Source of the DNA: Archaeoglobaceae archaeon
GTDB taxonomy: Archaea; Halobacteriota; Archaeoglobi; Archaeoglobales; Archaeoglobaceae
DNA length: 64,000 bases
Assembly (NCBI GenBank): GCA_027028145.1
Contig: JALVJV010000019.1
Span: 124,001-188,000, forward strand
Reading direction: 5' to 3'
Below, piece after piece: positions 61,144-63,004 of the stretch. Under the pieces are notes generated by a model, which was not told the origin of the DNA, made no database searches, and saw only the letters and a list, made by a program, of their open reading frames with translations. A program made the translations under genes and the position numbers. How positions within the stretch are numbered: the stretch's first letter is position 1; the number at the start of each line of letters is the position of its first letter.

Positions 61144-62238
61144 TTATCTAATCCTGTCGATTCCGAACTTCCTTCTTATATTTTCTACAGTTTCATTTTT
61201 CTGTGGGATTTCTCCATCCGGCTCGTATCTCGAAAGTAGATTCGGAGACTTAACGCCGGTCATTATAGCCATGACCCTTACCATGCCCTCCAATTCGTCC
61301 TCTATCCTCGCTCCCCATATCACGTTCGCATTTACGTCGATTTCAAAAGTTAGCTCTCTAACGATTTCTTCAGCCTCTTTAATAGTCAGATCGTTTCCTC
61401 CCGAAATGTGGATGAGCGCACCCCTTGCACCTCTGAAATCGACTTCGAGCAACGGATGATTGAGGCAGTCCCTTACGACATCCTTAGCTTTGGATTGCGA
61501 TTTCGATTCTCCAACCAACATCACAGCCACTCCGCCGTTTTCCATCACAGCCTTAACATCCGCGAAGTCTATGTTCATCAGAGACGGGCGGGTGATCGTA
61601 TCCGTAATTCCCCTTATGGTTTCTGCTATTAACTGATCCATAACGCTGAAAGCCTGCTCTATTGGAAGATTGGGCACGTATTCGAGTAGCTTGTTGTTGT
61701 CCAAAACTACGACGGTATCGGAATACTTCCTAAGCTCTTCCAAACCTTCGGCGGCCTTCCTCAACCTTGCCCTCTCAACTAAGAAGGGCATGTTAGCCAT
61801 GCTTATTACTATGGCCCCCTGTTGCTTCGCAACTTCAGCGATAACCGGAGCCGCTCCTGTTCCGGTTCCTCCGCCCATTCCGGCGCATATGAAGACCATG
61901 TTTGCATCAGCTAAAAGTTGCTCGAAAACACCTCTCGCCATCTCAGCCGCTTTTCTGCCTATATCCGGATAACCTCCAGCCCCCAAACCGCGGGTGATAC
62001 TCCTTCCGATTAAAACCTTCTTATCCGCCTTTGTTATCAATAGATGTTGCTTGTCCGTGTTTACGGCAACAGTTAACACACCGTTAACACCTATGTTCTT
62101 CAACCTCGTTATCGTATTGTTTCCCGAACCACCAACACCAACGACAACTATCTTCGGTAGCTCAAAATCCTTAACAGCCTTTTCCTCCAACTTCTCCTTC
62201 TGATAATACTCCTGCGCCTTAACAACGAAAGATTTCAT
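61144..62238 (-). CDS. ftsZ: Cell division protein FtsZ
   Basis: The second ATG, 62238, lies seven bases after AGGAGG, whereas the first (62244) is too close, so 364 residues are preferred. GTP-binding motifs: [15 protein letters not shown], the tubulin signature [15 protein letters not shown], and T7-loop [15 protein letters not shown]. The N-terminal extension (about 28 residues) and ending [11 protein letters not shown]-like tail are usual for archaeal FtsZ. It forms the division ring. The RHH gene 11 bases upstream makes an operon. Confidence 0.97.
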
Positions 62239-62249
62239 AACCATTCCTC

Positions 62250-62423
62250 CTAAATATACGGACGCATATTCTGTTGCTTCTCGATGAGCTTAGCCTTCTC
62301 AGCCAAAAGCTTACGAATGGCATCCCTAATAGCTTCGCTGACAGAGGCGTATTCTCCCATCTGAACAAGAGCCTCCAACATCTCGTAGTGCTGATCTGTA
62401 AGCCTGATCGAGATCTTTCTCAT
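62250..62423 (-). CDS. Ribbon-helix-helix regulator, CdrS-like, upstream of ftsZ
   Basis: The ATG at 62423 opens 57 codons: [20 protein letters not shown], then [20 protein letters not shown], a textbook RHH/CopG fold in which the first strand reads DNA. Haloarchaea have a cdrS (RHH)-ftsZ2 operon in which CdrS controls cell-division genes; position and size match here. A perfect inverted repeat lies in the promoter. The ftsZ ribosome site AGGAGG overlaps the end of this gene. Confidence 0.88.
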
Positions 62424-62497
62424 TTCGGCTCACCTAAACATGCTGTCTTACATGCGGGTGTCCGCTGACATCCGTATGTGGTCAGTTCATGGTTCAT

Positions 62498-62542
62498 TTG
62501 TCCGACATTGTCGGACAATAGTCCGACTCCATAATATATAAG
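62498..62542 (-). promoter_or_regulatory. RHH-ftsZ operon promoter with operator
   Basis: TTGTCCGACA (62498-62507), one base, then TGTCGGACAA (62509-62518) form a perfect inverted repeat with 10-base arms. A third half-site GTCCGAC lies at 62521-62527. On the minus strand the TATA box CTTATATATTAT is at 62531-62542, so the expected start (about 62508) falls in the repeat. A leader of about 85 bases precedes the RHH gene. The rest of the 62424-62707 gap shows no gene. Confidence 0.65.
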
Positions 62543-62707
62543 CATTTTGGTTTCAGTATTATATGGGCTCATAAAAGATGAAACCGAAAATACTACAAAA
62601 ACAAAAATGGATATAAAAGGAGATTCGAAACTAAACGGTTCTATAAAATCTTTCGAGGAAAAAATAAGTCTGAATAAATATTATCTTGCTATTTTATAAA
62701 TTGACAT

Positions 62708-63004
62708 CTAATTATTGTTATTGTGATCATGCGGTAAGTCCCAGTCCTTGCTTGGATCTCCTTTAACGTATTTTTCGATCAATCTGTCCTCAAGATCCAA
62801 GTCAAACAGATTCGCTAAGCTCAAAACCATGAAGAGCACATCTACGAGTTCTTCTTTGATGTTCGGTATCTCACGCTTGCGAACAGCTTCTGCGAGCTCC
62901 CCAACCTCTTCGAATAGAACGGCGAGTAGGAAGAGTTCTCCCGATTTGGAATCGATCTCGTAGTATTTCTCCCTAATTATCCTCTGAATTTCTCGCAATT
63001 CCAT
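62708..63004 (-). CDS. MazG-like nucleotide pyrophosphohydrolase
   Basis: From the ATG at 63004 (MELREIQRIIREKYYEID) it has 98 residues. The metal-binding pattern EEVGELAEAVRK followed by EELVDVLFMVLSLANL is that of MazG/dUTPase-like all-alpha pyrophosphohydrolases (E-x-x-E...E-x-x-D). It would hydrolyse NTPs to NMPs, cleaning the nucleotide pool. The end HDHNNNN is low complexity. It diverges from the TrkA-N/DHH gene. Confidence 0.88.
   Translation of the reverse strand: MELREIQRIIREKYYEIDSKSGELFLLAVLFEEVGELAEAVRKREIPNIKEELVDVLFMVLSLANLFDLDLEDRLIEKYVKGDPSKDWDLPHDHNNNN

Follow-up and report, generated by a model that had tools for sequence, protein, structure and literature searches.

Control over the amount of division tubulin in archaea is largely open, and the present locus raises the question of whether a short ribbon-helix-helix (RHH) gene standing before ftsZ could regulate both itself and ftsZ through a repetitive element in front of the two. 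The window, that is the whole stretch of 64 000 nt analysed, belongs to an Archaeoglobaceae genome of 24 contigs and 1.52 Mb. CdrS, the cdrS–ftsZ2 operon and the wide conservation of this operon are already published (PMC7439475).

On the minus strand the TATA-like element CTTATATAT (62534–62542) is followed by three short boxes, by 76 nt of predicted 5′ leader (62424–62499), which separate the array from the RHH start codon, by the RHH gene (62250–62423) and by ftsZ (61144–62244). The first ATG of ftsZ (62244) lies 5 nt past the RHH stop codon and the second (62238) lies 11 nt past it; a GGAGGA at 62245–62250 is better spaced for the second than for the first, and ATG 62238 is the likely start. 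With this ATG, the statement of an earlier sequence-only reading that a 57-residue RHH gene lies 11 bases before ftsZ is confirmed. The FtsZ protein is of the FtsZ2 type (TIGR00065, 427.5 bits) and is 57–61% identical to the FtsZ adjoining cdrS in 14 haloarchaea, compared with 44–48% for the 15 other FtsZ matches of the same genomes. FtsZ of the Archaeoglobaceae MAG WAKM01000023.1, among the nearest named relatives, is 99% identical to it.

The RHH protein was matched to Pfam RHH_1 with 33.6 bits (cut-off 20.5). Its best NCBIfam match was the model for haloarchaeal CdrS (NF058555) with 38.2 bits, under the cut-off of 100; since the model name (TransRegCdrSHalo) suggests a haloarchaeal scope, the protein is termed CdrS-type here and not haloarchaeal CdrS. 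Like CdrS, it is a single-domain RHH protein of about 60 residues (57), and the corresponding gene is directly upstream of ftsZ2 at 48/48 loci of the family and at 54/54 other loci. Helices were predicted by AlphaFold at residues 10–21 and 28–56, the beta ribbon being absent from this monomer model, and the nearest solved folds identified by Foldseek were the RHH domains of ParD and NikR (best E value 0.022, none below 0.001).

The element had been read as a perfect 10-1-10 inverted repeat accompanied by a third half-site. As letters, both parts are present in the window: TTGTCCGACA (62498–62507), T (62508) and TGTCGGACAA (62509–62518), with an additional GTCCGAC beside them at 62521–62527. 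GTCCGAC and GTCGGAC are mutual reverse complements and each is symmetric about its centre base, so that the repeating unit is the box, and the element is a tandem array of three self-symmetric GTC-S-GAC boxes with spacings of 11 and 10 bp. On the coding strand, box 1 (GTCGGAC, 62521–62527) lies between the TATA-like element and the predicted start of transcription, box 2 (GTCCGAC, 62510–62516) lies at this start, 11 bp from box 1, and box 3 (GTCGGAC, 62500–62506) falls within the leader, at a spacing of 10 bp relative to box 2. The position of CTTATATAT predicts transcription to start near 62512, inside box 2, and the three boxes cover about −15 to +13 relative to this point, which bears out the claim that an operator-like element lies over the predicted transcription start.

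GTCCGAC occurs six times in the window compared with 6.87 expected, i.e. at chance level, and TTGTCCGACA with one mismatch gave 28 matches in the whole genome compared with 39 for the reversed pattern. As single TTGTCCGACA-like sites are not enriched, a wider regulon is not claimed for this genome. Exact short-spaced box pairs were found in it at the RHH–ftsZ locus only, and the search for direct GTCCGAC–GTCCGAC pairs gave no match in the whole genome because the centre base of the boxes differs. The chance-level count of single 7-mers could be taken to mean that the array arose by chance or, some genomes of the family being close relatives, is kept by shared ancestry and has no function; the comparison of loci bears directly on this.

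The family set comprised 55 Archaeoglobaceae genomes, 52 with any RHH match, and 48 loci were retained at an E value below 1e-10. At all 48, ftsZ directly follows the RHH gene or slightly overlaps it, the RHH protein carries Lys3, Ser5 and Arg7 (K3, S5, R7), and at least one exact GTCSGAC is found within 180 nt upstream of the RHH gene; the proposed check of conservation in other Archaeoglobales thus came out in favour of the element. The exact pattern GTCNGAC-n3–4-GTCNGAC gave 17 matches in 10/55 genomes, all at RHH–ftsZ (reversed pattern, 12), and the stricter pattern with S at the centre was found in nine of the 55 genomes (control, four). At 47/47 examinable loci a TATA-like 8-mer (at least 7/8 positions) precedes the first exact box by no more than 90 nt; L032 was omitted, its contig ending at this point. 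That box begins 14–15 nt past the start of the TATA-like 8-mer in 33/47 loci and 25–30 nt past it in the remaining 14. As in multi-box RHH operators, the repeated short sites keep a constant pitch and overlap the promoter, as placed by the TATA-like match, of the operon that encodes the putative regulator.

Conservation resides in the spacing of the boxes. Box scores past the first box, averaged over 13 genera, peaked at +11, +21, +32, +43 and +54. At a period of 10.7 bp the score was 3.21 (3.10 with other rounding), and 300 dinucleotide shuffles gave a mean of 2.05 (s.d. 0.085, maximum 2.32); turns 3–6 alone scored 2.89 compared with 2.09 after shuffling (maximum 2.41). This period was picked after the peak profile had been seen, yet in a scan over periods 6–16 it came out best. 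Among the individual genera, g6 and g7 showed no significant phased array past the first box, and g2 and g4 were borderline (0.05 of shuffles). These data also bear on the unit first proposed, a single operator made up of the 10-1-10 inverted repeat, beside which the third half-site would be incidental. The repeat is indeed perfect in the window, but across the family the inversion is not kept and the helical spacing is: 33/41 spacings between exact boxes are 10, 11 or 21 bp, L006 and L008 carry two direct rather than inverted GTCGGAC boxes, and the centre base of the first box varies inside one genus (L003, L005). With 72/75 spacings in the other non-haloarchaeal loci at multiples of 11 bp, a single inverted repeat is very unlikely to be the operator, and this part of the earlier reading is not supported.

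Outside the family, 275/390 genomes of the phylum were matched by the RHH profile at 1e-6 and 115 were not. From these RHH matches 40 non-haloarchaeal and 14 haloarchaeal loci were picked by hand over families, the boxes playing no part in the choice; ftsZ was downstream on the same strand in 54/54. The 200 nt upstream regions of the 40 non-haloarchaeal loci (13 families) contained 91 exact GTCNGAC boxes compared with a shuffle mean of 1.48 (maximum 5), with at least one box at 40/40 loci and at least two at 32/40, and the next 200 nt upstream (−400 to −200) contained none. Spacings within a locus were exact multiples of 11 bp in 72/75 cases and 12 bp in the other three. TATA-like 8-mers stood upstream of the first box in 38/40 loci, and a better one downstream of it was found in none of the 40. 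When the exact boxes were masked, the 11 bp phase was still the top one (the masked signal in Archaeoglobaceae was weaker), and uninterrupted chains of box-like units (at least 4/6 matches) numbered up to nine with a median of four, a count made without shuffle control. The excess of boxes over shuffles, an empty adjacent control region and a phased spacing shared by 13 families in which the absolute positions differ leave an origin by chance or shared ancestry, with no function, next to impossible.

The box consensus across the non-haloarchaeal loci is TGTCNGACA. In RHH proteins in general, strand residues 3, 5 and 7 face the DNA. The centre of the box follows residue 3, which is expected to be in such a position here: it is C/G in 77/83 boxes where the RHH protein of the family has Lys3 and A/T in 77/87 boxes where it has Arg3, a correlation that may represent a single evolutionary event. 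Exact pairs in the 40 genomes were at cdrS–ftsZ in 11/15 cases, and the remaining four do not exceed the reversed control (18). Beyond the phylum, the loci L113, L120 and L121 of Bathyarchaeota/Thermoproteota MAGs have an RHH-like gene before ftsZ and no GTCNGAC in the preceding 300 nt, and the Micrarchaeota FtsZ loci fetched gave no match to the RHH profile at 1e-4. Archaeoglobaceae boxes mostly follow a pitch of 10/11 bp, so that two turns take 21 bp, whereas the other non-haloarchaeal loci (L160–L199 and L203) have 11 bp and two turns take 22 bp; hyperthermophiles may in this way be adapted to the twist of their DNA. In L180, from an f22 genome, a perfect 16 + 16 bp inverted repeat was recognized by eye over two array positions upstream of RHH–ftsZ.

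We consider it probable that the array is an autoregulatory CdrS–FtsZ2 operator, where CdrS dimers occupy consecutive boxes along a single DNA face and thereby repress the operon that encodes them. Each TGTCNGACA box, palindromic in itself, would accommodate a single CdrS (RHH) dimer. Since the boxes recur every 10–11 bp, i.e. once per helical turn, dimers would align on one DNA face and could bind cooperatively, and since the boxes of the window lie at about −15 to +13, filled boxes would block the loading of RNA polymerase; CdrS and FtsZ would in this way be kept at a set level. In other lineages the array extends deeper into the leader, with up to nine box-like units. The binding of the boxes by CdrS in Archaeoglobales, its cooperativity and its direction (repression) are deduced from sequence, and at the window locus the dimers, stacked along one side of the helix, would be expected to exert negative autoregulation.

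Alternatively, the element could act as RNA, the ftsZ leader forming a hairpin or an attenuator. Leader hairpins were found in g2, g10 and g13, where 14 sequences were aligned [L024–L029, L031 and L032 (g13), L040–L044 (g2) and L030 (g10); L038 and L046, two of the ten g13 loci, are outside this alignment], and compensatory changes, with both sides altered, were seen in 7/16 pairs. Mean folding z scores were −3.75 for g2 and −3.23 for g13, and post-transcriptional control of cdrS–ftsZ2 has been suggested in Hbt. salinarum (PMC8303175). However, the covariation term, at −0.28, is small, as many as 5/14 sequences break some of the pairs, g4, g5, g6 and g9 fold unremarkably on average and no Rfam match was obtained up to E = 1 in 62200–62720. 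Moreover, a first box 14–15 nt past the start of the TATA-like element should mostly precede the start of transcription, and helical phasing and self-palindromic boxes are features of DNA. An RNA element in place of an operator is accordingly very unlikely; the leader hairpin may be a second, clade-specific layer. Located at roughly −77 to −40 relative to the RHH start, it is built partly from phased boxes, and L003, from the same genus as the window, has a 13 bp stem.

The tie of the box to CdrS itself was made through orthologous promoters and position in the 14 haloarchaea. ChIP-seq in H. volcanii located 18 CdrS sites, among them ftsZ1 (−50) and dacZ (−47) relative to the transcription start; the ftsZ1 site is upstream of the promoter, and ftsZ1 was moderately down when cdrS–ftsZ2 was silenced (PMC8406309). 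Box pairs were sought up to 110 nt upstream of the start codons of ftsZ1 and dacZ, which were chosen by hand, a third FtsZ match (L243) being excluded from the ftsZ1 count. GTCNGAC pairs at 11 bp were found before ftsZ1 in 13/14 genomes with at most two mismatches, at −63 to −87 (shuffle mean 0.1), and in 11/14 with at most one (shuffle mean 0.0); the corresponding numbers for dacZ were 6/14, at −49 to −73 (shuffle mean 0.12), and 4/14 (shuffle mean 0.0). It was the search for GTAAGAC-type boxes before these genes that led to GTCNGAC there: in the 900 nt before 29 ftsZ1/dacZ matches, a single GTAAGAC was seen in each of L237 and L253 and a single GTATGAC in L242. The suggested search for further box pairs thus gave a divided result, with none elsewhere in the window's genome or family and a positive outcome at haloarchaeal ftsZ1.

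Genome-wide, the 14 haloarchaea contain 35 exact pairs compared with one for the reversed pattern. Each pair was assigned to the open frame closest to it, with a Pfam check of ten proteins. Four pairs adjoin ftsZ1, three adjoin bactofilin-like genes (Pfam identified two of these, and L316 was assigned by likeness), two adjoin the cyclohydrolase gene Mch (L279 from Pfam, L278 from likeness), two adjoin DUF5789 genes and one lies 203 nt from a CetZ gene; the rest have other neighbours, several of them no clear gene. The pairs beside bactofilin-like, CetZ, Mch and DUF5789 genes are L276, L282, L316, L281, L278, L279, L275 and L302. Judged by these neighbours, the exact pairs mark a candidate cytoskeletal regulon.

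The haloarchaeal cdrS promoters themselves have a different arrangement. GTAAGAC and GTCTTAC were each found within 400 nt upstream of cdrS in 14/14 loci, paired 3–5 bp apart in 12/14, and each arm is one base away from GTCNGAC. These promoters score as an 11 bp GTCNGAC pair in 11/14 cases at two mismatches and in 0/14 at one or fewer, so that a test at two mismatches fails to separate cdrS from ftsZ1 and a test at one separates them (0/14 compared with 11/14). One exact GTCNGAC is present within 200 nt of cdrS in L204 and L210, and several haloarchaeal loci have one further upstream. In L200–L214 (not L203), GTAAGAC-N4-GTCTTAC was seen in the cdrS–ftsZ2 promoters at −128 to −20 of cdrS, often with an extra GTAAGAC and GTCTTAC just before the cdrS start codon. 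The cdrS promoter is absent from the H. volcanii CdrS table as given in PMC8406309, which counts against self-binding by CdrS, and in Hbt. salinarum the one site reported as reproducible for CdrL, a different RHH protein, is the cdrS–ftsZ2 promoter region (PMC7439475). An unfiltered scan placed a CdrL-like RHH gene within 1500 nt upstream of cdrS in 11/14 halophiles (E < 0.01) and found none in that interval in the other three. We infer that GTAAGAC–GTCTTAC is a variant of the ancestral box pair and is now a candidate CdrL operator, to which CdrS may bind as well.

The same observations could mean that the boxes in general serve as sites for a factor other than CdrS, be it a second RHH protein or some further regulator, with cdrS merely a regulated gene: the haloarchaeal element bound by CdrL is a close variant of the box pair, and another RHH-like match (G000:C15:10638) is present in the window's genome. 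CdrL is, however, described from Halobacteria alone (PMC7439475), a near-exact GTCNGAC pair stands at orthologues of the CdrS ChIP targets ftsZ1 and dacZ, and an RHH gene and ftsZ adjoin the element at 88/88 non-haloarchaeal loci examined. Another factor is therefore unlikely, and the autoregulatory CdrS operator is retained as the preferred reading.

Boxes at cdrS–ftsZ lie downstream of the TATA-like element and over or after the predicted start, which is a repressing position, whereas the ftsZ1 pair of the haloarchaea, 63–87 nt before the start codon and corresponding to a site upstream of the promoter in H. volcanii, is in an activating position. Against repression at the operon itself, CdrS has been described as an activator of ftsZ2 in Hbt. 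salinarum. One protein may be repressor and activator according to site. We tentatively extend this to an evolutionary scheme, although the balance is somewhat against it: an ancestral self-limiting division switch shared by the whole phylum, in which a graded CdrS filament reads the level of CdrS as the number of filled boxes and sets the dosage of FtsZ, and in which the gain of CdrL by the ancestor of the halophiles, with the change of the array to GTAAGAC/GTCTTAC, freed CdrS for a broader cytoskeletal regulon of ftsZ1, cetZ and bactofilin genes. With a conserved box at one-turn pitch linked to ChIP targets, the site, the binding mode and the evolutionary rewiring become testable, and such tests are feasible in cultured methanogens and in genetically tractable haloarchaea.

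The literature searched, with most subscription papers and preprints outside it, gave no published description of the box or array and no CdrS operator outside halophiles; the accessible part of a recent review (PMC7617429) makes no mention of either box or array. The window shares with the haloarchaeal CdrS–FtsZ2 system of Hbt. salinarum and Hfx. volcanii a short RHH gene directly before ftsZ2, and in haloarchaea the promoters orthologous to the CdrS ChIP targets ftsZ1 and dacZ contain the GTCNGAC pair; unlike the haloarchaeal cdrS promoters, with GTAAGAC–GTCTTAC in the region bound by CdrL, it has a GTCSGAC array over the predicted start. The met boxes of MetJ are self-palindromic and in tandem, as are the boxes of the window, but have a pitch of 8 bp, and dimers on the Arc operator sit about 11 bp apart on one face, a similar spacing, at two sites; both regulators come from other organisms and have other targets. 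Omega (ParB) of plasmid pSM19035 places RHH dimers on 7–10 consecutive 7 bp boxes at parS, which overlap promoters including that of its own gene (PMC9499535); its boxes are non-palindromic at a pitch of 7 bp, whereas those of the window are palindromic at 10–11 bp. Among RHH regulators of archaea and their viruses, SvtR represses its own promoter and may polymerize along DNA (PMC5569661) and SegB of Sulfolobales has sites before its own operon (PMC12284271). SvtR, AvtR and SegB resemble CdrS in this origin and differ in their motifs, and the descriptions of them compared here, as far as available, mention no array of several boxes in helical phase that is conserved across a phylum. Multi-box RHH operators are thus already known; what is new is a palindromic box at one-turn pitch that is conserved across a phylum at a division operon.
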